From assembly GCF_031885415.1 (NCBI RefSeq), contig NZ_CP116871.1, positions 1,364,001 through 1,428,000 of the forward strand: DNA of 64,000 nt, written 5' to 3'. Within the stretch, counting starts at the first letter, position 1; the number at the start of each line of letters is the position of its first letter. The notes under the pieces are model-generated. The model was not told the origin of the DNA, made no database searches, and saw only the letters and a program-made list of their open reading frames with translations. Both the position numbers and the translations under genes were made by a program. This document shows positions 52,251 through 62,980 of this stretch, piece by piece. This DNA comes from Microbacterium forte. Lineage in GTDB: Bacteria; Actinomycetota; Actinomycetes; Actinomycetales; Microbacteriaceae.

Positions 52251-53521
52251 TGCTGCAGGTCCGGGTAGAGCGGGAAGACGGCGGCGAGCGCGTCGACACG
52301 AGCACGGAGCGCCTCGACGTCGGCCCCGGGCAGCAGCGCGAGAGCGATCACATCGGCGACCTCGGTGAACTCGGCGTCGCCGAAACCGCGGGTCGCGAGT
52401 GCCGGAGTTCCGATGCGCAGGCCCGAGGTGACCATCGGCGGACGAGGGTCGTTGGGCACGGCGTTGCGGTTCACCGTGATGTGGATGTCGTGCAGCAGGT
52501 CTTCGGCCTGCTTGCCGTCGATCTCCGCCTCACGAAGGTCGACCAGCACCAGGTGCACGTCGGTGCCGCCGGAGCGCACTCCGATGCCGGCATCCTTCAC
52601 ATCCTGCTGCGACAGACGCTCGGCGAGGATCGCTGCTCCGCGCAGCGTGCGCTCCTGGCGTTCCTTGAACTCGGGGGTGCCTGCGAGCTTGAACGCGGTC
52701 GCCTTGGCGGCGATCACGTGCATGAGCGGGCCGCCCTGCTGTCCGGGGAAGACTGCCGTGTTGATCTTCTTCGCGATCTCGGGGTCGTTCGTCAGGATGA
52801 AGCCCGAACGGGGTCCGCCGATGGTCTTGTGCACGGTCGAGGAGACGACATGTGCGTGCGGCACCGGGTTCGGGTGCAGGCCTGCGGCGACGAGGCCGGC
52901 GAAGTGCGCCATGTCGACCCAGAGCAGGGCGCCGACCTCGTCGGCGATCGCACGGAAGGCGGCGAAGTCGAGAGTGCGGGGGTAGGCCGACCAGCCGGCG
53001 ATGATGACCTTGGGCTTGTGCTCGACCGCGAGGCGACGCACCTCGTCCATGTCGATCGTCGAGGTCTCGGGGTCCACTCCGTAGGCGACGATGTCGTAGA
53101 GGCGGCCCGAGAAGTTGATCTTCATGCCGTGCGTCAGATGACCGCCCTGGTCGAGAGCGAGGCCGAGCAGTGTGTCGCCGGGGCGGGCGATCGCGTGCAG
53201 CACGGCGGCGTTGGCCGATGCTCCCGAGTGCGGCTGGACGTTGGCGAACTCCGAGCCGAAGAGGTTCTTGGCACGCTGGATCGCCAGTGACTCGGCGACG
53301 TCGACCTCTTCGCAGCCGCCGTAGTAGCGGCGTCCGGGGTAGCCCTCGGCGTACTTGTTGGTGAGCACCGAACCCTGCGCCTGAAGCACAGAGACGGGGA
53401 CGAAGTTCTCGGATGCGATCATCTCGAGGAACGTCTGCTGACGCTTCAGCTCGCGGTCGAGAACCTGTGCGATCTCGGGGTCGACCTCGGCGAGCGGGGC
53501 GTTGAAGTAACGATCGGTCAT
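52247..53521 (-). CDS. glyA: Serine hydroxymethyltransferase GlyA
   Basis: 424 aa. PLP lysine K232 in [14 protein letters not shown]; other signatures are [22 protein letters not shown] and the [14 protein letters not shown] segment. It transfers the serine hydroxymethyl group to THF, giving glycine and methylene-THF, the FolD substrate. AGGAGCAAGTC before ATG 53521 sets the start. The leader contains a ZTP/ZMP riboswitch, linking expression to 10-formyl-THF shortage. Confidence 0.97.
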
Positions 53522-53559
53522 GACTTGCTCCTCTGACGACGGATTCGAAGGGGTATACC

Positions 53560-53640
53560 TATCGGCCCAGGCGCGCGGTCGAATTCCGTGGTCAGTCGCT
53601 CCCCGGTGGTAGTCCACCCAGACGCCAGTCGCGACGTGAG
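53560..53640 (-). ncRNA. ZTP/ZMP riboswitch (pfl motif) of glyA-folD
   Basis: Read on the minus strand: the conserved core GCGACTGGCG, a GGTGG/CCACC hairpin with ACTA loop, GGGGAGCGAC closing with an upstream GTCGC, and downstream CGCCTGGGC. These are the hallmark pieces of the pfl RNA in the right order. The class senses the purine intermediate ZMP/ZTP and raises expression of one-carbon genes; glyA and folD are standard targets. About 40 bases separate it from the glyA ATG. Confidence 0.88.
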
Positions 53641-53694
53641 AAAGCATAGCGGATTTCCCTGTGCTGCCGACTCGGCGCAGGGTAGGTTTTGTTC

Positions 53695-55212
53695 ATGGTC
53701 CTTCCCCATTCCATGCCCCTTGTTCCCCTCCCCTCCTCCGCCGTCGCCGGCGACGGCCGGTGGCCCGTCTCCGAGAACACGCGAGTCATCGGTGACTCGC
53801 CGGCCGCGCGGCAGCTGATCGATGCCGCAGAGCGACGCAGCGGCATCCGCTTCTCCCACTCCACGGACACGACAGACCCGACTTCGGCGATCGTGCTGCG
53901 CGTCGACCCCGCCGTCGCCCCCGAGGGCTACACGCTCACGGTCGCCGACTCCGTCGAGGTCGTCGGCGGCGACGAGGCAGGACTCTTCTACGGGGTGCAG
54001 ACTCTGCTGCAGCTGCTCCGAGACGGCGACGAGGGGTGGGCGCTGCTGCACGCCGAGATCACGGACGCGCCGCGATTCGAGCGCCGCGGCGTGATGCTCG
54101 ACGTCACACGGCACTTCTTCGACGTCGCCGAGGTCAAGAAGTTCATCGACAGCACCAGCGCTCTGAAGTTCAACCATCTGCACCTGCACCTCAGCGACGA
54201 CCAGGGCTGGCGCATCCAGATCGACTCATGGCCCAAGCTCACCGAACTCGCGTCATCGACCGCATCGCTCGGCGATCCCGGAGGTTTCTACACGAAGGAC
54301 GACTATCGCGAGATCGTGGCCTACGCGGCCGAGCGGCACATGCTCGTCATCCCCGAGATCGACCTTCCCGGCCACACGCACGCCATCGGCGTCGCGTATC
54401 CCGAGCTCGTCGAGGACCCGGTCATGAACGACAGCCTGATCGCCGAATCGGCGCGCCTCGGTCAGCCGCTCCCCGTGGCCGGCGAGCCCTACCTCGGGTG
54501 GGGCGTCGGACACTCGAGCGTCCGCATCCACGAGGAGCGCACGTACGAGTTCGTGCGCGACGTGGCGCGGGAGCTCGCCGAGATGACACCCGGTCCGTTC
54601 ATCCACATCGGCGGAGACGAGTCGCTCGGCACCCCGCAGGCCGATTTCGATCACTTCGTCGAGCGCGCGACCGCGATCGTCTTCGAGGAGGGCAAGATCC
54701 CCCTGGCGTGGCACGAGGTCGGCGCGGCGAAGGACATCGCCGAGGGCACGATCGGCCAGTACTGGGGCAAGACCACGCCCGAGGGATCGCATGCCGCGGA
54801 GGCCGCGCACTTCGTCGAGCGCGGCGGCGCGCTCATCATGTCGACCGCCGACGTCGCCTACCTCGACATGAAGTACTCCGCGGACTTCCCGCTCGGGTTG
54901 ACCTGGGCCGCGATCATCGACGTCCGCACGGCATACGAATGGGAACCGACCGCGGCGCTCGACGTGCCTGAGGCGGCGATCCTCGGCATCGAGGCTCCGT
55001 TGTGGAGCGAGACGACCCGCAGCCTCAGCGATGTCGAGCGGCTCGTGTTCCCGCGGGCCGCCGCCCACGCCGAGGTCGCCTGGTCGCCACAGCGCGCGTC
55101 CGGCCGCGACTGGGAGTCGTTCCGCGCACGGCTCGGCGGGCTGGCCCCGTTGTGGAAGGCTGAAGGCGTCGATTTCCACCCCGCAGCCGAGATTCCCTGG
55201 AGCGAACGATGA
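53695..55212 (+). CDS. Beta-N-acetylhexosaminidase, glycoside hydrolase family 20
   Basis: 505 aa, no signal peptide seen, so probably cytoplasmic. A GH20b-like N-terminal domain (about 1-120) precedes the catalytic barrel beginning FERRGVMLDVTRHFF. Catalytic Asp-Glu in FIHIGGDES; substrate-pocket motifs are HLHLSDDQGWRI and the later tryptophans (LAWHEVG, LTWAAIID). It removes terminal GlcNAc (or GalNAc) from chitobiose or muropeptide-type oligomers. ATGA overlap with nagA shows a shared operon for GlcNAc use. An ATG six codons later is an alternative start. Confidence 0.92.
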   Translation: MVLPHSMPLVPLPSSAVAGDGRWPVSENTRVIGDSPAARQLIDAAERRSGIRFSHSTDTTDPTSAIVLRVDPAVAPEGYTLTVADSVEVVGGDEAGLFYGVQTLLQLLRDGDEGWALLHAEITDAPRFERRGVMLDVTRHFFDVAEVKKFIDSTSALKFNHLHLHLSDDQGWRIQIDSWPKLTELASSTASLGDPGGFYTKDDYREIVAYAAERHMLVIPEIDLPGHTHAIGVAYPELVEDPVMNDSLIAESARLGQPLPVAGEPYLGWGVGHSSVRIHEERTYEFVRDVARELAEMTPGPFIHIGGDESLGTPQADFDHFVERATAIVFEEGKIPLAWHEVGAAKDIAEGTIGQYWGKTTPEGSHAAEAAHFVERGGALIMSTADVAYLDMKYSADFPLGLTWAAIIDVRTAYEWEPTAALDVPEAAILGIEAPLWSETTRSLSDVERLVFPRAAAHAEVAWSPQRASGRDWESFRARLGGLAPLWKAEGVDFHPAAEIPWSER

Positions 55213-56375
55213 CCACCGATTCCGCAGCGACAGGATCGCTCGTCATCCACTCCGCCCGACTGATCGACCACGGCGCCGAGGTCGCAGACTCCTGGGTGCG
55301 GATCGAAGACGGCCGAGTCGTCGCCGTCGGAACCGGACAGTCGTGGAGCAGGGCAGACGAGGTCGTCGATGCGACCGTCGTCGCCGGACCGGATGCCGTG
55401 CTCACGCCCGGCTTCATCGACATCCACTGCCACGGCGGCGCGGGCGCCTCATTCGACGACGGCGCGGAGGCGATCCGCGCGGCTCGTGCTCTGCACCGTT
55501 CGCACGGCACCACGCGATCGGTGATCTCGCTCGTCACGGCACCGGTCGACGCCCTCGCGCAACGCGTCGCCGAGATCGCCGACCTGATGGAGACGGATGC
55601 CGACATCCTCGGGTCGCATCTGGAGGGACCGTTCCTCGACCCTGCGCACCACGGAGCACATGAGCCGACGTTGCTGCTGGCTCCGGCGCGCGACGATGTC
55701 GCCCGACTGCTCGATGCCGGCCGCGGCACGATCCGGCAGGTGACGATCGCGCCCGAGCTGCCCGGTGGCCTCGACGCGATCCGGCTGATCGTCGATGCCG
55801 GCGCTGTCGCTGCGGTGGGGCACACGAGCGCGGATGCCGAGACAGCGGTCGCCGCGTTCGACTCAGGCGCGACCGTGCTGACACACGCATTCAACGCCAT
55901 GCCCGGCATCCACCATCGCGCGCCAGGACCGGTGCTGGCCGCGGCCGGCGACCGCCGCGTGGTGCTCGAGGTGATCGCCGACGGCGTTCACCTCGATCCG
56001 CACGTGATCAAGCTCGTGTTCGACTCGGCACCCGGCCGCGTGGCGCTCGTCACCGACGCCATGGCCGCCGCGGGCAGTGCCGACGGCCACTACGACCTGG
56101 GCGCCGTGAGCGTGACGGTCGAAGACGGCGTAGCGCGCGCGGACGACACCGGCTCGATCGCCGGATCGACCCTCACCCAGGACGACGCGCTGCGCCGGGC
56201 GGTCGCTGCGGGGGCACCGCTCACGGAGGCCGTGCGCGCACTCACGGAGACTCCGGCGGCCGCCATCGGATACGGTGACCGACTCGGCCGCCTCGCGGTC
56301 GGGTACCTCGGTGACGCCGTGCTCATGGATGCGCAGCTGCAGGTCGTGCGCGTGTGGGTGGGCGATCGCCCGTAG
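55209..56375 (+). CDS. nagA: N-acetylglucosamine-6-phosphate deacetylase NagA
   Basis: 388 aa amidohydrolase. Metal/active-site motifs: FIDIHCHGGAG, SHLEGPFLDP, VGHTSADAE, LTHAFNAMPGIHHR and the catalytic Asp in LVTDAMAAAG. It yields glucosamine-6-phosphate, the NagB substrate, and acetate. Coupled to the GH20 gene. nagB and the kinase lie about 5 kb downstream on the other strand. Confidence 0.94.
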   Translation: MTTDSAATGSLVIHSARLIDHGAEVADSWVRIEDGRVVAVGTGQSWSRADEVVDATVVAGPDAVLTPGFIDIHCHGGAGASFDDGAEAIRAARALHRSHGTTRSVISLVTAPVDALAQRVAEIADLMETDADILGSHLEGPFLDPAHHGAHEPTLLLAPARDDVARLLDAGRGTIRQVTIAPELPGGLDAIRLIVDAGAVAAVGHTSADAETAVAAFDSGATVLTHAFNAMPGIHHRAPGPVLAAAGDRRVVLEVIADGVHLDPHVIKLVFDSAPGRVALVTDAMAAAGSADGHYDLGAVSVTVEDGVARADDTGSIAGSTLTQDDALRRAVAAGAPLTEAVRALTETPAAAIGYGDRLGRLAVGYLGDAVLMDAQLQVVRVWVGDRP

Positions 56376-56835
56376 TCGGATGTCGCGAGCGTGATGTCGA
56401 GCGACCCGGTGTCGCGCGGTCCGACGCCGCGAGCGAAGCGAAGTGCAGTGGTGCTCTGCCGCCACGCCGCCGAAGTGGGTGAAGGGCCGCCGTTCCCCAG
56501 ATCGGCGGCCCTGTCACATTTCCCTCCCCTGCGCGAGAGCTGGCGGGCCGAGCGCTCCTCCCCCGAGGTGCCCGACCCGCCATGCCGGTGCACTTACCCC
56601 TTGCACCAGCGCCTGAGCTCCGCCCCCCGGTGGAGCCCCATGGCTGCCTCACCTGATGAGACGAAGGCGATGCCGATTCATTACGCGGTTCCCCGGATCT
56701 TTTTTTGAGGTTGTTCTCCAGAATCGATCGATCTGGGCGTGACCAGGGCTTTATCGGGGCGGGCAGTTCGCGGCCAGTTTCTCGGAAGGGGTGGCAAGCC
56801 TGGGAGATTGGAGAGAGAATGGGAGACGGCGCGTG
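56376..56835. other. 460-bp intergenic region between nagA and the sigma-fusion gene
   Basis: No credible gene. It holds a terminator (56484-56511) and, further right, a run of seven Ts at 56699-56706 just after GGATC. The rest is ordinary high-GC DNA. The promoter of the sigma-fusion gene should lie in its last 150 bp, but no clear boxes were recognised. Confidence 0.5.
56484..56511 (+). terminator. Terminator after nagA
   Basis: A perfect 9-bp stem GGGCCGCCG/CGGCGGCCC with a 10-base loop, 109 bp after the nagA stop. Confidence 0.7.
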
Positions 56836-59067
56836 ATGAAAATGGGGTTCACGCGTCTCTTCATGTGGACGCGCACTCGCGCTCCACGACAGATGGACGA
56901 CATGGATCAGGACAGCACTTCGCACGAGGAAACGATCGCCGACGCCGATCTCGTCCTGCGCACCCGCTCGGGTGACGCAGCGGCCTTCGGCGAACTCTGG
57001 AGGCGGCACTACCCCTCCGGCATGTCCGTCGCCCGGTCGATCACGTCGTCGATCGACCCGGACGATCTCGTGCAGGAGTCCTACACCCGCATCTATCAGG
57101 CGATCGTCAAGGGCGGCGGGCCCAACGGCTCGTTCCGCGCGTATCTGTTCACGAGCATCCGCAACACCGCCGCGGCCTGGGGCCGCTCTCGCCGCGAGTC
57201 GGCCATCGACGAGCTCGACAGCGTGGCCGACCCCGACAGCACCGACCAGGCGGCCAACGAGGCCCTCGATCGCAGCCTGACCGCGCAGGCGTTCCGCAGC
57301 CTTCCCTCCCGTTGGCAGGAGGTGCTCTGGTACACCGAGATCGAGCAGATGAAGCCGCAGGAGGCGGCGACCCTGCTCGGCATGAAGGCGGGCGCCGTCT
57401 CGCAGCTCGCGTTCCGCGCGCGCGAAGGGCTTCGCGAAGCATGGATCCAGGCCCATCTCCGCAGCGCAGCCGCGGGCTCCGACTGCCAGTGGACCATCGA
57501 GCATCTGGGCGCCTACTCGCGCGGCAACCTCAGCAATCGAGACCACAACCGTCTCGAGCAGCACCTCGAAGAGTGCGCACGCTGCATGATCGTCGCCGCC
57601 GAGGCCAAGGACGTGTCGAAGCGGCTGGCGCTCGTGCTGCTCCCGCTCGTCCTCGGCATCACGGGTTCCGCAGGTTATCTCGCCACGCTGCAGGGCGGCG
57701 GCACCCCGATCGTCGCGCTCGCGGCCATGCCTTCGGGAATCACCGAGGGCGCGGTCGTCGTCGCCGGAGGCGCGACAGCGGCGTCCTCGAGCGGTGCAGC
57801 AGGCAGCGGCACGACGGGCGGTGGCGGGGCAGCAGGCGGCGGGGCAGCAGGCGGCGGTGCAGCAGGCGGCGGAGCCGGTGGTGCGACCAGCGGCGGCATC
57901 TTCAGCGGTGTCGGCGCGCTCGTGGGCGCTGGCTCAGCCGCTCTCGTGGTCGCGGGTGTCGTAGCGGCTGCCACCATCATCCCGAGCCTCACCGGCGCGT
58001 CACCAGCGGCATCGCTGCCCAGTGCCGGCGACAGCGACTCCTCGTCGATCAGTGCCGATGTCGGACCCGACGAATCGATGTCCGACGAGAAGACGCCGAT
58101 CGTCGACGATGCGGAGACCGAACCCGAACCGGTCACGCCGCCGGTCGAGGCGCCCGTCACCCCTGAGCCAGCCGAGGACATCGCGCCCGCTATCGTCGCG
58201 CCGTCGGCTCCGGTCGAGACATCGGAGCCGGCTCCGGAAGAGGATGTCCCCGGAGAAGAGACTCCCGGTGAAGAAACTCCCGGAGAAGAGAACCCCGGCG
58301 GCGAAACCCCCGGAGAAGAGAACCCCGGCGGCGAAACCCCCGGAGAAGAGAACCCCGGCGGCGAAACCCCCGGAGAAGAAAACCCCGGGGAGGAGAACCC
58401 CGGCGAACCGGCGGTCCCGACGACTCCGATCGTGGTCAGCCTCGCCGACCTGTGTCTCGACGCTCGAGCCATCACCTATGTGACCCTGAACGTGTCCGGT
58501 GAAGCGGGCGCCGACATCGAGGCCCTGCTCGGTGGCAGTCACGGTGGTGCCGACAGCACATCGCTGGGTGACGCCGGAACCGGAACGATCGAGCTGCGAC
58601 CCGGACTCGTGCAGATCCTCCTCGGCGCGACGGTCGAGATCCACTATGCGACAGAGGCCGGTCCGGTCCTGCCGGTCACCACCAGCCTCTCGGCGCTCGG
58701 GGTGACCCTCGAATCCGTCCTGCTCGCGCCTGCCTGCGGTGCGCCAGCCGAAGATCCCGTCGAGGACGCGCCGGCGGTCCCGACCCCGGACGACACGGTC
58801 GTGCCTGCACCGGAGCCGACGGACGAGGCCGCCCCCGCTGCACCCGACGAGGCCGCCCCCGCGGCTCCCGTCGAGGCTCCCGACGCGGAGGTCGCTCCCG
58901 AGACTCCGGCTCCCGAACCGGCCGCGCCCGTCGAGCCCTCCGCTCCGGTGGAGACGGCTCCTCCGGCCGAGCCGGCGGTCGAAGAAGAGACCGCTCCCGT
59001 CGACGAGACTGCACCCGCAGTCGACGAGGCCGTCCCCGCGGCAGACGAGGCCGTCCCCGCGCTCTGA
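56836..59067 (+). CDS. ECF-type sigma factor fused to a zinc-finger anti-sigma-like segment, membrane helices and a repeat-rich tail
   Basis: 743 aa. Sigma region 2 spans about 38-120 (LVLRTRSGDAAAFGELW ... DPDDLVQESYTRIYQAI) and region 4 about 150-205 (LPSRWQEVLWYTEIEQM, then EAATLLGMKAGAVSQLAFR). A zinc-finger pattern as in anti-sigma factors follows: H243, C247, C250 (QHLEECARC). Then come a membrane helix (about 263-285), a Gly/Ala repeat, a second hydrophobic helix (about 355-385), a long acidic Pro-rich region with ten-residue PGEENPGGET repeats, a small folded module with two Cys (LADLCLDARAIT ... LLAPACG), and a Pro/Glu/Ala-rich end. The start is uncertain: GTG 56833 or ATG 56836, with GGGAG upstream; ATG 56893 is also possible. 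Operation as a membrane-held regulator is inferred. Confidence 0.85.
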   Translation: MKMGFTRLFMWTRTRAPRQMDDMDQDSTSHEETIADADLVLRTRSGDAAAFGELWRRHYPSGMSVARSITSSIDPDDLVQESYTRIYQAIVKGGGPNGSFRAYLFTSIRNTAAAWGRSRRESAIDELDSVADPDSTDQAANEALDRSLTAQAFRSLPSRWQEVLWYTEIEQMKPQEAATLLGMKAGAVSQLAFRAREGLREAWIQAHLRSAAAGSDCQWTIEHLGAYSRGNLSNRDHNRLEQHLEECARCMIVAAEAKDVSKRLALVLLPLVLGITGSAGYLATLQGGGTPIVALAAMPSGITEGAVVVAGGATAASSSGAAGSGTTGGGGAAGGGAAGGGAAGGGAGGATSGGIFSGVGALVGAGSAALVVAGVVAAATIIPSLTGASPAASLPSAGDSDSSSISADVGPDESMSDEKTPIVDDAETEPEPVTPPVEAPVTPEPAEDIAPAIVAPSAPVETSEPAPEEDVPGEETPGEETPGEENPGGETPGEENPGGETPGEENPGGETPGEENPGEENPGEPAVPTTPIVVSLADLCLDARAITYVTLNVSGEAGADIEALLGGSHGGADSTSLGDAGTGTIELRPGLVQILLGATVEIHYATEAGPVLPVTTSLSALGVTLESVLLAPACGAPAEDPVEDAPAVPTPDDTVVPAPEPTDEAAPAAPDEAAPAAPVEAPDAEVAPETPAPEPAAPVEPSAPVETAPPAEPAVEEETAPVDETAPAVDEAVPAADEAVPAL
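57829..57873 (+). repeat. Three 15-bp tandem repeats encoding Gly/Ala linker
   Basis: GCAGCAGGCGGCGGN is repeated three times head to tail inside the sigma-fusion gene, encoding a Gly/Ala-rich linker (AAGGG units). The reading frame is kept by the 15-bp period. Confidence 0.85.
58291..58380 (+). repeat. Three 30-bp tandem repeats encoding the NPGGETPGEE unit
   Basis: Three head-to-tail copies of a 30-bp unit, the first two identical and the third differing at its last base, inside the sigma-fusion gene (residues about 486-515). Shorter related units flank it (PGEET, PGEEN). The period is in frame, so copy-number change would not disrupt the protein. Confidence 0.9.
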
Positions 59068-59097: not shown

Positions 59098-59469
59098 ATG
59101 CCCCAGGATCCCGCCTCCGTCCCCGGCGTCGACCGCCCGAACATCACCGCCCTCGACATCGTCCGATCGGTCGTCCTGATCGTCGCCGTGGGCACGCTCG
59201 CGCTGTGGGGATTCGCCCTGTGGCCGTTCCCGTGGAACGTCGTCATCGGCATCGGTGCTCCCCTGGTCGTGATCCTGGTCTGGGCTCTCTTCCTCTCCCC
59301 GCGTCCCGTGCTGCGCCTGCACCCGTTCCTGCGGGTCGTCGTCGAGCTGTTGATCTACGTCGGGGTCACGATCGCGTGGTGGCTGATGGATCAGCCGATC
59401 ATCGGCACCGCATTCGCCGTGGTCGCAGTCGGCGCCGGAGTGGTGAGCGGGCGGCGTCGCATCCGATGA
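59098..59469 (+). CDS. YrdB/DUF2568-like small membrane protein
   Basis: 123 aa with four hydrophobic helices (about 18-40, 45-65, 77-95, 98-115). The layout resembles the YrdB/DUF2568 family of four-helix membrane proteins, whose function is unknown. It starts 30 bp after the sigma-fusion gene and overlaps the flavoprotein gene by four bases (ATGA). Confidence 0.75.
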   Translation: MPQDPASVPGVDRPNITALDIVRSVVLIVAVGTLALWGFALWPFPWNVVIGIGAPLVVILVWALFLSPRPVLRLHPFLRVVVELLIYVGVTIAWWLMDQPIIGTAFAVVAVGAGVVSGRRRIR

Positions 59470-60830
59470 GCGCTCTCGACCAGCTCGTCGCCGCACTCGG
59501 CGACATCGTCGACACCGATGCCGCGATCCTCGAAGAAGCCCGCGCCGACCGGTCAGGGCACGCAGCGCCAGGTCAGCCCCTCGCGGTCGTGCATGCCGAG
59601 ACCGTCGAACACGTCCAGACCGTGATGCGCATAGCCACCCGCACGGCCACGCCCGTCGTGGTGCGCGGGGCCGGCACCGGTCTCGCCGGTGCCGCGAACG
59701 GCGGCGAGGGAGAGATCGTGCTCTCCACCCGCCGTATGACCGCGATCCGCGAGATCCGCGCCGATGACCTGCTCGCCGTCGTCGAACCCGGCATCCTCAA
59801 CTCCGACCTCAACGACGTCCTCGCAGAGCACGGACTCTGGTGGGCCCCCGACCCCGCCAGCCGGGCGATCTCGACCGTCGGCGGCAACATCGCCACTGGA
59901 GCAGGCGGGCTGCTCTGCGCGAAGTACGGCGTCGTGAAGGACGCCGTCCTCGGGGTAGACCTGGTGCTCGCGGACGGCCGCCTGATGCGCCTCGGTCACC
60001 GCAGCGTCAAGGGCGTGACGGGGCTCGACCTCACCTCGCTCGTGATCGGCTCGGAAGGCACTCTCGGCGTGGTCGTCGGCGCCACGCTGAAGCTGCGCCG
60101 ACTCGTCGAGGGAACCACCTGCACGGTGACGACGATCTTCCCCGACGTGCGCACAGCGGCATCCGCATCCGCCGCGGTCACCGCGTCCGGTGTGCAGCCG
60201 GCGATCATGGAGCTGATGGACTCGGCGAGCCTCGCGGCTGTCGCCGCCCTGCTGGAGCTGCCCTCCCCCGCCGCCGGAAGCGCGCAGCTGACGATCCAGA
60301 CGGATGGCCCGGCCGCCGTCGCCGAGGCGACGACGATCGCCGAGATCCTGACTTCTCACCGCGGTGTGACTCAGGTCTCGCACGACCGCGACGAAGGCGA
60401 GCGCCTGCTGGCGATACGTCGCGCCATGCACCCTGCGATGTCCGCTCTCGGCACGACCCTCATCGAGGACGTGTCGGTGCCGCGCAGTGCGATGCCCGCG
60501 ATGTTCGACGAGATCGCCCGTATCGAGAAGGCCTACTCGATGACCATCCCCACGGTGGCGCACGCGGGAGACGGAAACCTGCACCCGAACTTCATCTTCG
60601 AGGGCGCCGAGCCACCCGCTGAGGTCTGGGCCGCCGCAGACGAGCTGTTCCGGGCCGCGATCGCCCTCGGTGGCACGCTGACCGGCGAGCACGGGATCGG
60701 AACCCTGAAGAGCCGCTGGCTGGCCGACGAGCTCGGAGACGACCAGTGGGAGCTGCAGCGTCAGATCACCCGGGTGTTCGACCCGCTCGGCATCCTCAAC
60801 CCCGGCAAGGTGTTCGCACCCGATGCCTGA
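59466..60830 (+). CDS. FAD-binding oxidoreductase, GlcD/D-lactate dehydrogenase-like
   Basis: 454 aa. A PCMH-type FAD domain (about 35-215; VVVRGAGTGLAGAANGGEGEIVLS and TVGGNIATGAGGLLCAKYG) is followed by the FAD-oxidase C domain with a VAHAGDGNLHPNF metal/substrate motif and the terminal HGIGTLKSRWL ... GILNPGKVF. It oxidises a 2-hydroxy acid such as glycolate or D-lactate; the substrate is not determinable. No GlcE/GlcF partner is adjacent. Overlaps the Nudix gene by eight bases. Confidence 0.9.
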   Translation: MSALDQLVAALGDIVDTDAAILEEARADRSGHAAPGQPLAVVHAETVEHVQTVMRIATRTATPVVVRGAGTGLAGAANGGEGEIVLSTRRMTAIREIRADDLLAVVEPGILNSDLNDVLAEHGLWWAPDPASRAISTVGGNIATGAGGLLCAKYGVVKDAVLGVDLVLADGRLMRLGHRSVKGVTGLDLTSLVIGSEGTLGVVVGATLKLRRLVEGTTCTVTTIFPDVRTAASASAAVTASGVQPAIMELMDSASLAAVAALLELPSPAAGSAQLTIQTDGPAAVAEATTIAEILTSHRGVTQVSHDRDEGERLLAIRRAMHPAMSALGTTLIEDVSVPRSAMPAMFDEIARIEKAYSMTIPTVAHAGDGNLHPNFIFEGAEPPAEVWAAADELFRAAIALGGTLTGEHGIGTLKSRWLADELGDDQWELQRQITRVFDPLGILNPGKVFAPDA

Positions 60831-61230
60831 CATCCACGTCAGCGCGGCGGTCATCGTCGACGACACCGGCCGGGTGCTGGTGGTCCGCAAGCAGGGCACG
60901 ACGCGCTTCATGCAGCCCGGCGGCAAACCGGAGCCCGGCGAGACGCCGTCGCAGACACTGATCCGCGAATTGCACGAAGAGCTCGGCCTGCGACTCGACG
61001 AGGCCGACCTCGAGCCCCTCGGCACGTTCGTCTCCGAGGCGGCGAACGAGCCGGGTCACCGGGTCGTGGCCGAGGCGTTCTCGGTGTCCATCGCCGCCGC
61101 CGAGGTGGTCGTGCAGGCCGAGCTCGCCGAGCTGCGGTGGATCACCCCCGCCGACGCCGAGACGCTGCCGCTCGCGCCGCTCAGCGTCGAGCACCTGCTG
61201 CCGCTCGCGTGGCCCGCGACGCGGGCCTGA
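60823..61230 (+). CDS. Nudix hydrolase
   Basis: 135 aa. Nudix box: GGKPEPGETPSQTLIRELHEE then LGL. The N-terminal AAVIVDDTGRVLVVRKQGT and FMQPGGK resemble MutT-like NUDIX proteins. Coupled to the flavoprotein gene by overlap. Substrate unknown. Confidence 0.92.
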   Translation: MPDIHVSAAVIVDDTGRVLVVRKQGTTRFMQPGGKPEPGETPSQTLIRELHEELGLRLDEADLEPLGTFVSEAANEPGHRVVAEAFSVSIAAAEVVVQAELAELRWITPADAETLPLAPLSVEHLLPLAWPATRA

Positions 61231-61242
61231 GGGCCGATCGGA

Positions 61243-62022
61243 TCAGATGCCCTGCCAGCTCGGCTTGTTGGCGTAGGTGTAGCGGTAGTAGTCGGAGAGC
61301 TTGAGGCGAGACGCGGCGGCTTCGTCGACCACGACGGTGGCGTGCGGATGCAGTTGGATGGCCGAACCGGGGAGGATGGCCGACAGCGGCCCCTCGACGG
61401 CGTCCGCGACCGCCTGAGCCTTGCCCTCGCCGAAGGCGAGCAGCACGAGGTGACGCGCGCGAAGGATCGTTCCCAGACCCTGCGTGATGCAGTGCTTCGG
61501 CACGTCGTCGATCGAGTCGAAGAAGCGCGCGTTGTCTTCGCGCGTCTGCACGGTGAGTGTCTTGACGCGTGTCCGCGAAGCGAACGACGACCCCGGCTCG
61601 TTGAATCCGATGTGTCCGTCGGTGCCGATGCCGAGGATCTGCAGGTCGACTCCTCCGGCTGCCTCGATGGCGGTCTCGTAGTCGTCGCCCGCGTGCTGGA
61701 TCGTCTCCTGTGCGCCGTTGGGCACGTGGATCCGGCGCGGGTCGAGCCCGAGGGGCTCCACGACCTCGCGGGTGATGACCGAGCGGTAGCTCTCGGGATG
61801 AGCCGGGTCGAGTCCCACGTACTCGTCCAGCGCGAAACCGCGCACCTGCGAGACATCGCGACCCGTGAGCTTCTCGCGCAACGCCTTGTAGACGGGAAGG
61901 GGCGTCGAGCCGGTGGCGAGGCCGAGCACGGCGTCCGGACGCCCGTCGATCAACTCGACGATCTCGGCGGCGACCAGTGCGCCCGCTGCTTCTGCGTTCT
62001 CGACGATGACGACTTCAGCCAT
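61243..62022 (-). CDS. nagB: Glucosamine-6-phosphate deaminase NagB
   Basis: 259 aa. Signatures: LGLATGSTPLPVYKAL, FALDEYVGLDP, and the core GIGTDGHIGFNEPGSSF with catalytic Asp and His. It makes fructose-6-phosphate and ammonia. AGGAGAT eight bases before ATG 62022 sets the start. It overlaps the ROK kinase gene by eight bases. Confidence 0.95.
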   Translation of the reverse strand: MAEVVIVENAEAAGALVAAEIVELIDGRPDAVLGLATGSTPLPVYKALREKLTGRDVSQVRGFALDEYVGLDPAHPESYRSVITREVVEPLGLDPRRIHVPNGAQETIQHAGDDYETAIEAAGGVDLQILGIGTDGHIGFNEPGSSFASRTRVKTLTVQTREDNARFFDSIDDVPKHCITQGLGTILRARHLVLLAFGEGKAQAVADAVEGPLSAILPGSAIQLHPHATVVVDEAAASRLKLSDYYRYTYANKPSWQGI

Positions 62023-62980
62023 GGGAAACGATCTCCTTGGAGGGGGTGGTTGCGCCGACGACCGCTGCCCCGAAGGCCGCGGCGGGAGAGCCGGCAGGGA
62101 GCAGTTCGATCCTGTCATCCAGGTGCAGCGAGCGCATGAAGGGCGAAGCCTCGGCGCCGGTCTGGAGGGCTCTGCGGACGCCCGCGAAGAGTCTCTCTCC
62201 GAGCGAGGTGAGGCCGCCGCCGATGATCACACGTTCGACGTCTGCGGAGAGCACGAGGGCCCTGACCGCCGCCGCTGCGCCGTGGAACAGGTCGGCGCGC
62301 AGGCCCGCGGCGCGCTCATCGCCCGCCTCGGCCGCGTCGAGGATGTCGCGCACCGGCAACGCCCCCGGTCGATCCCAGGCACGGGCGAGCGCGCCACCGC
62401 CGCAGAAGGTCTCGATGCATCCGCGCTGCCCGCAGCCGCAGAGCCGTCCGTTCGGGTCGACCGAGAGGTGTCCGACCTCGCCGGCGGTCCCCCGCGCGCC
62501 ACGCCAGATCGTGCCGTCGATGACGATGCCGGCAGCGACACCCGTGCCGAGGTTGAGATAGGCCATCGAGCCGTCGACGCCGCGCAGCACCGCAGCACCG
62601 AGCGCGGCTGCCTTCACATCGTTCTCGACCCGCACCGGGATCCCCAGCTGTCGACCGGCGAGACCGGCGAGATCCAGCGACTCGACACCGAGGTTCACGG
62701 CATGCAGGACTCTGCCGGTGTCCGCGTCGACGAGCCCGGGGATGCCGACGCCCACCGATTCGACGGCGGAACGGGCGAACCCTCCGTCGACGGCGAGTGC
62801 GTCGACGGCGTCGATGATGCTGACCACGACCGCCTCCTCGCCCCATCCGGTCGGACGGCGCAGGCGCGCCAGGATGTCTCCGTCGGGCGACACGGCCACG
62901 GCATCGATCTTGGTTCCGCCGACGTCCAGGCCCACTCGAACGGGTCGACCGGACAGGCCGACGGGGATCGCACCCGTCAT
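62015..62980 (-). CDS. ROK-family sugar kinase, likely N-acetylglucosamine kinase
   Basis: 321 aa. ATP motif VGLDVGGTKIDAVAV, sugar site ENDVKAAALGA, phosphate-2 region NLGTGVAAGIVIDG and the ROK zinc motif CGCGQRGCIE with the upstream His. It would phosphorylate GlcNAc (or glucose) at O6. Placement with nagB and a ROK regulator favours GlcNAc, complementing NagA. Confidence 0.88.
   Translation of the reverse strand: MTGAIPVGLSGRPVRVGLDVGGTKIDAVAVSPDGDILARLRRPTGWGEEAVVVSIIDAVDALAVDGGFARSAVESVGVGIPGLVDADTGRVLHAVNLGVESLDLAGLAGRQLGIPVRVENDVKAAALGAAVLRGVDGSMAYLNLGTGVAAGIVIDGTIWRGARGTAGEVGHLSVDPNGRLCGCGQRGCIETFCGGGALARAWDRPGALPVRDILDAAEAGDERAAGLRADLFHGAAAAVRALVLSADVERVIIGGGLTSLGERLFAGVRRALQTGAEASPFMRSLHLDDRIELLPAGSPAAAFGAAVVGATTPSKEIVSHG

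Follow-up and report, generated by a model that had tools for sequence, protein, structure and literature searches.

An ECF52-like sigma factor fused to a zinc anti-sigma domain and carrying a modelled Ig-like domain in Microbacterium forte

The locus and its reading frame

We analysed a window of 64,000 nucleotides from Microbacterium forte (contig NZ_CP116871.1, positions 1,364,001 to 1,428,000, forward strand), to which the coordinates below refer unless a contig or locus is named. It contains a gene for a sigma/anti-sigma fusion protein that sits in an amino-sugar cluster, between nagA and a DUF2568 gene:

53689..55212, + strand: GH20 hexosaminidase (Pfam)
55209..56375, + strand: NagA-like amidohydrolase (Pfam Amidohydro_1)
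56893..59067, + strand: sigma/anti-sigma/membrane/Ig-like fusion gene, 724 aa; a start at 56902 is also possible
59098..59469, + strand: DUF2568 protein (Pfam), 30 nt behind the fusion gene
59466..60830, + strand: FAD-linked oxidase (Pfam)
60823..61230, + strand: NUDIX hydrolase (Pfam)
61243..62022, - strand: NagB-like glucosamine-6-phosphate isomerase (Pfam Glucosamine_iso)
62015..62935, - strand: ROK-family kinase (Pfam)

The names NagA (55209..56375) and NagB (61243..62022) are our assumption from context. On the far side of the cluster, a ZMP/ZTP riboswitch (53558-53642, - strand, 50.3 bits) lies ahead of a minus-strand gene starting at 53521, which we take from its first residues to code for serine hydroxymethyltransferase.

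The frame of the fusion gene is open from 56791 to the stop codon at 59067 with no internal stop in its translation, and a codon-usage gene finder calls a single gene, 56893-59067. A first-pass annotation of this DNA had placed the start at 56836, which is unlikely in view of this call and of the relative L077 (97% identical), where the D of DADLV, the first conserved residue, is preceded at 34 codons by an in-frame stop and has its only upstream start codons at 13 and 15 codons. The window starts matching those of L077 are 56902 (13 codons) and 56893 (16 codons), and the true start is probably one of these two.

Sigma and anti-sigma domains

The protein encoded by the gene is made up of the following parts:

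56941..57195, + strand: sigma region 2 (Sigma70_r2, 33.4 bits, Pfam cut-off 24)
57289..57459, + strand: sigma region 4 (Sigma70_r4_2, 27.9 bits, Pfam cut-off 25.7)
57484..57585, + strand: anti-sigma zinc finger C-x25-H-x3-C-x2-C (zf-HC2, 32.6 bits, Pfam cut-off 22.2)
57625..57690, + strand: hydrophobic segment 1, with a conserved Pro and an invariant Gly, continuing the anti-sigma domain (hydrophobicity, alignment)
57691..57912, + strand: Gly/Ala/Ser-rich linker
57913..57981, + strand: hydrophobic segment 2, the likely membrane crossing (hydrophobicity)
57982..58416, + strand: Pro/Glu-rich acidic stalk, with PGEE(T/N) repeats at 58249-58410
58417..58773, + strand: modelled Ig-like beta-sandwich module, with cysteines at 58453-58455 and 58735-58737
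58774..59064, + strand: Pro/Ala/Glu-rich C-terminal tail

Sigma regions 2 and 4 had been read in one chain with an HxxxCxxC segment resembling anti-sigma factors, and both readings are borne out, since region 2, region 4 and the finger follow each other in this order, each above its Pfam cut-off. The NCBIfam model sigma70-ECF scores 73.3 against a cut-off of 42.9. The full ligand motif of the finger, C-x25-H-x3-C-x2-C, carries the signature of class I zinc anti-sigma domains (ZAS), namely H-x3-C-x2-C with an upstream C or H ligand. The ligands H, C and C are invariant and the first ligand is C or H in 14/14 sequences; in a 74-sequence alignment H, C, C and the segment-1 Gly are invariant, and the segment-1 Pro is kept in at least 90%.

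AlphaFold models the sigma and anti-sigma domains with confidence, giving block means of 85-97 across the zinc-finger domain and a whole-protein pTM of 0.41. When compared with solved structures, the sigma part has an ECF sigma fold, and a search with the zinc-finger profile picks out the RslA chain in entry 3hug (E 7e-4); DdvA, RsiW and ChrR were matched too, below significance. The modelled arrangement of sigma regions 2 and 4 lies at 9.5-10.1 A rmsd from the sigmaE/RseA and AlgU/MucA chains, against 17-22 A from the listed polymerase-bound ECF sigmas, a weak comparison with an inter-domain linker modelled at 53-79. The finger profile and the ECF fold give good sequence-based support to the earlier proposal of a sigma/anti-sigma pair tethered in cis, and the fused zinc domain would be expected to inhibit the sigma part in cis.

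Distribution of the fusion and paralogues

A protein search returned at least 822 relatives at E <= 0.001 among 7999 candidates scored. All of the 120 listed homologues contain HxxxCxxC. In 110 of them this is joined by both the second hydrophobic segment and a tail exceeding 150 residues, and six of the ten others are entered as partial. The survey of fusion conservation that had been called for therefore finds one common plan in 110/120 listed homologues, indicating that the fusion is neither a frameshift artefact nor a chance product and, together with the frame open to 59067, upholding the view of a single polypeptide with no stop or frameshift between sigma part and tail. Within the genus sample, the stretch from sigma part to segment 1 was matched in 88/119 genomes, and 77 genomes, counted from the matches listed, have a full-length match at >=59% identity. 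Across the class, matches were found in 87/246 genomes and 20/103 genera, the weaker ones including short non-fusion frames. The best 80 loci include ones from Microbacterium, Plantibacter, Compostimonas, Agromyces, Leifsonia, Subtercola, Humibacter, Agreia, Rathayibacter, Salinibacterium, Glaciihabitans, Cellulosimicrobium and Nocardiopsis.

The window genome has 18 sigma region 2 matches, three of which are further fusions with the same plan (C1:1751547-1755943 and 2654357-2655109, both on the minus strand, loci L048 and L049), two of them close together. These paralogues have diverged, as judged by scores below the Pfam cut-offs for zf-HC2 in all three (14.7-17.0 against 22.2 bits) and for Sigma70_r2 in two of the three. 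Over about 178 residues, the sigma parts of fused proteins are 40-76% identical to that of the window protein, compared with 24-26% for the four usable sigmas of this genome that are not fused. In a maximum-likelihood tree with 24 fused sigmas and 4 unfused ones, built without the unfused sigmas L005 and L006 (not extracted), L007 and the one at 2343k (24-26 aligned residues), the fused proteins fall on one branch (UFBoot 75), in which the window group and the paralogues join NPCBM-bearing Streptomyces-type proteins (UFBoot 95).

Some loci showed peculiarities of their own. The tail of L121 (Agromyces subbeticus) turns Arg-rich and looks out of register, and the match at G091 C1:810843-811599 is split over two frames; each may reflect decay or a sequencing error. 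L096, in a record named Planococcus sp. (JASDDH010000017.1), is a Microbacterium-type locus from a probably mislabelled assembly. Near the two neighbouring paralogues, L048 12907-14535 (- strand) holds a long ORF ending in what we take to be an LPxTG-like sorting signal.

Membrane segments and topology

No segment of the window protein or of its three paralogues is more strongly hydrophobic than segment 2, and segment 1 of the three paralogues falls under the hydrophobicity threshold used. Among 99 proteins, counted after dropping those too short or without the motif, the Kyte-Doolittle medians are 1.87 for segment 1 and 2.26 for segment 2; both are hydrophobic enough to cross. AlphaFold confidence falls from 60 to 48 in segment 1 and is near 45 in segment 2, so the membrane part is not modelled.

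If both segments crossed, the tail would lie inside. Its cysteines suggest otherwise. Of the 110 listed homologues, 57 have two cysteines in the tail, 51 have none and 2 have one. Exactly two in 57 of the 59 having any means that the tail is most likely outside, with one segment crossing. In a second set of 80 proteins, from partly overlapping species, 49 tails have no cysteine, 27 have two, and single proteins have three, four, five and six, the last being L121. The number is even in 29 of the 31 having any and, with zero included, in 78/80, compared with 58% under a Poisson law. Pair spacings in this set are mostly about 94-100 or 35-42 residues, and the pairs therefore probably arose more than once. 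Since related sequences are not independent, we take the pairing as good, not final, evidence.

The charges around segment 2 were also counted. The 20 residues behind it hold 180 D/E against 48 K/R in the 99 proteins, in which the positive-inside rule gives no net signal, with 44 K/R before and 48 behind the segment. In L058, L060 and L156, a 19-residue loop before segment 2 has 3-4 K/R and no D/E, and the stretch behind it has 4-5 D/E and no K/R. Altogether, we infer that the tail is outside and the number of crossings odd, most simply one, and that the crossing segment is most likely segment 2. The two membrane helices of the first-pass annotation are thus present as hydrophobic segments, but the paired tail cysteines conflict with both of them crossing.

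Stalk and outer module

The tail of the window protein has 361 residues and 17% Pro; for the 110 listed homologues the mean is 17% Pro and the median length 325 residues. Its module is modelled by AlphaFold at pLDDT 87.6 with seven strands of >=3 residues, and the structural neighbours of this model are beta-sandwiches. Relatives carry Big-type Ig domains or NPCBM at the same position, and hhalign relates the module to their Big-type domains with P 1.7e-4 and a probability of 50%. A Pfam search found no Big domain in the window protein itself; the Pfam Big cut-off is passed by 3/9 proteins tested, the paralogue parB, L124 and L149 (Streptomyces protein excluded). Pfam detected no carbohydrate-binding domain in the window protein up to E 1, and the module sequence gave one match among solved structures, at E 0.83, taken as chance. 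The Ig-like module may bind sugars, and its two cysteines presumably form a disulfide. A literature search for an Ig-like domain in an ECF fusion found no report.

The small two-cysteine module noticed earlier in the Pro/Glu/Gly-rich tail does exist and models as an Ig-like beta-sandwich, but as a universal feature it is ruled out by the 51/110 listed homologues without any tail cysteine. This count supersedes one made with a strict pattern, which cut out 33 distinct modules with >=2 cysteines in 1 and none in 22; that pattern missed the window's own module and gave pieces too short for wide cysteine pairs.

Amino-sugar genes next to the fusion gene

A nagA relative is present in 51 of the best 80 loci, some of which are cut short, and in eight named genera. 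Of the genomes in the sample, 34 of the 88 having the fusion gene were used for the motif counts below, and 18 of the 31 without it for those counts and for nagA. A nagA relative, 37-74% identical and not necessarily an orthologue in every case, was found in 16/18 genomes without the fusion gene, ruling out that nagA needs the sigma factor. Six of the 18 loci from these genomes (L255, L256, L258, L260, L262 and L263) show an empty site, with nagA followed directly by the DUF2568 gene. The link between nagA and the fusion gene is therefore positional.

A conserved motif upstream of the gene

Three elements were recognized upstream of the fusion gene:

56658..56687, + strand: motif copy 1, GAGAYG-N14-TYATNACGCG, 0 mismatches
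56791..56820, + strand: probable housekeeping promoter GTGGCA-N18-GAGAAT, aligned by eye (TTGGCA-like/NANAAT in many relatives)
56830..56859, - strand: inverted motif copy 2, matching the combined consensus with 0 mismatches and located in what is probably the 5' leader

Copy 2 lies just behind the housekeeping-like promoter, so that the two inverted copies flank it; a consensus scan for promoters and terminators found nothing, including at 56791..56820. The motif occurs with <=1 mismatch within about 450 nt upstream in 49/79 loci, those with enough upstream DNA and part of which served to derive the consensus, against 0/395 shuffles. A sense copy is present at 43 loci, an inverted copy at 34 and both at 28. 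Only 6/83 sites lie elsewhere in 1,177 kb, three of these being a further copy slightly upstream. The spacer is exactly 14 nt; spacers of 13 and 15 were tried and gave no match. G052 has the fusion gene and no motif site within one mismatch. Pairing of the two copies in RNA was rejected, as judged by eye from a variable position that does not covary within loci, and Rfam at gathering scores reports no family at the copies.

In its own genome, the two copies at the fusion gene are the sole perfect ones, and a looser form gives 16 matches with <=2 mismatches against 10 for a reversed control. Within the window, <=3 mismatches yield 3 matches, a chance level (11/100 shuffles reach 3), and none of them precedes the hexosaminidase-nagA or nagB-ROK genes, which gives no support to their control via the motif. 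Elsewhere in the 34 genomes having the fusion gene there are 12 perfect copies, against 0 in the 18 without, showing that the motif goes with the gene; one-mismatch sites in the latter number 10, against 4 for the reversed control. Four of the 12 extra sites point towards a gene start at a distance of 56-142 nt, that of an amino-acid ABC transporter (G014, by eye), a zinc dehydrogenase (G034), a DUF347 protein (G088) or anmK (G071). The perfect copy of G071 (L248 2662-2691) precedes by 142 nt the gene anmK, for a kinase that recycles wall amino sugars. The other eight are mostly intergenic, in opposite orientation or between convergent genes. The motif is asymmetric with a fixed spacer, as befits an ECF promoter; an operator would also agree with the mixed orientation of the extra sites.

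Discussion

We think it likely that this protein signals on its own, an ECF sigma masked in cis and bound to an Ig-like outer domain by a chain that crosses the membrane once, until a wall event frees the sigma. At rest, the sigma would be held at the membrane and masked by the fused zinc anti-sigma domain, the chain crossing most likely by segment 2. The Pro/Glu stalk would carry the Ig-like domain, stapled in this species by a putative disulfide, so that it reaches into the cell wall or through it. Some event at the wall, acting on this domain, could then result in a cut or a conformational change freeing the sigma part, which would direct RNA polymerase to its promoters, its own promoter first. 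A bolder version, to which we give little credence, holds that the Ig-like domain on its wall-spanning stalk reports the state of the wall by freeing a sigma with a private bipartite promoter, segment 1 coupling release to the membrane. Were it true, the private promoter would be present as the facing pair around the gene's own housekeeping promoter and also, in one relative so far, ahead of anmK, and segment 1, in which a Pro is conserved and a Gly invariant, would represent a novel type of helix touching the membrane.

The promoter part of this proposal has a close competitor, in which another transcription factor uses the upstream motif as its operator; we give it slightly less than an even chance. 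It would account for two inverted copies flanking a probable housekeeping promoter and for the 8/12 extra perfect sites that do not face a nearby gene start, and the second half of the motif is longer than the usual -10 element of ECF promoters, which also counts for an operator. However, the asymmetric halves and the exact 14-nt spacer fit a -35/-10 geometry, and perfect extra sites restricted to gene-bearing genomes (12 in 34, 0 in 18) tie the motif to the fused sigma. That the frame is a decayed or misassembled one without function is hardly conceivable: its tail is repetitive and of low complexity, and that of L121 looks out of register, but the plan is kept in 110/120 listed homologues, with relatives in other genera.

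Two further alternatives concern how the sigma would be held and activated. Both segments might cross as a hairpin, leaving stalk and Ig-like domain in the cytoplasm to sense an inside signal or bind a partner. Both are indeed hydrophobic, and the available text of PMC8999054 gives one to two transmembrane helices for the ECF48/52/53 kind, but this topology is made quite improbable by the cysteine pairs of the tail, the acidic residues that follow segment 2, the K/R before and D/E behind this segment in L058, L060 and L156, and the presence of NPCBM or Big-type domains at that position in relatives. A little less doubtful, though still unlikely, is an activation without cutting, where a conformational change of the outer domain loosens the anti-sigma and the sigma keeps its tether close to the membrane. 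Activation by a conformational change is reported for ECF41 and ECF238, other ECF proteins with extensions, in the same text (PMC8999054), whereas a tethered sigma would need promoters near the membrane, and the proposals quoted for ECF52 in the passages available from PMC5826349 allow both routes.

Comparison with known systems

The sigma/anti-sigma fusion plan itself is already published for actinobacterial proteins of the ECF52/53 type, e.g. SCO4117. ECF52 proteins are described with a zinc finger, a variable number of transmembrane helices, a Pro-rich extension and a carbohydrate-binding domain (PMC5826349, available passages), and some ECF52/53 proteins with glycosyl hydrolase or carbohydrate-binding domains (PMC10766802, available passages). 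The window protein has ECF regions 2 and 4, the fused zinc finger, predicted membrane segments and a long Pro-rich extension, but not the carbohydrate-binding domain; we therefore call it ECF52-like, not ECF52, a placement made by its plan and tree neighbours. With SCO4117 of Streptomyces coelicolor, likened here by description, it shares ECF sigma, zinc finger, membrane segment, Pro-rich extension, an outer domain and its occurrence in Actinobacteria. The NPCBM-bearing Streptomyces-type relatives L070, L071 and L076 are 41-43% identical to it over aligned sigma, zinc finger and segment 1. The outer domain differs, being Ig-like in the window protein and the carbohydrate-binding NPCBM in ECF52, and so does the setting, since SCO4117 adjoins atrA (PMC5826349, available passages) and the window gene amino-sugar genes.

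ECF48 and ECF53 fusions, also likened by description, share the C-terminal zinc anti-sigma domain and one to two transmembrane helices, and ECF48/52/53 are presented as anti-sigma fusions expected to be activated by proteolysis (PMC8999054, available text). The release by a protease upon an envelope signal that the first-pass annotation put forward as a possibility is thus already proposed in print for such fusions. According to the same text of this 2022 review, IutY is the only fused case with an experimentally characterized proteolytic activation; its release involves Prc and RseP (PMC8999054 and PMC7593790, both in available passages). IutY of Pseudomonas putida (ECF243) likewise joins a sigma and a membrane anti-sigma in one chain, but it is an unrelated protein that serves iron-starvation cell-surface signalling in a Gram-negative, and the available passages on it mention neither a zinc finger nor an Ig-like domain. 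Fused sigma/anti-sigma proteins thus recur in Actinobacteria, yet the sole characterized activation is that of the Gram-negative IutY, as given in the available text of PMC8999054. The window family occurs in a genus rich in species, has four members in a single genome, and comes with natural empty sites and with a candidate promoter that is conserved, making it a good setting for finding signal, topology and regulon.

The SigL-RslA, SigW-RsiW and SigE-ChrR pairs have the same sigma fold, with a finger match that is significant for RslA and weak for RsiW and ChrR, but they are separate proteins whereas the window protein is one chain. Most likely it works by the same mechanism as the known fusions of sigma and anti-sigma, with a different outer domain.
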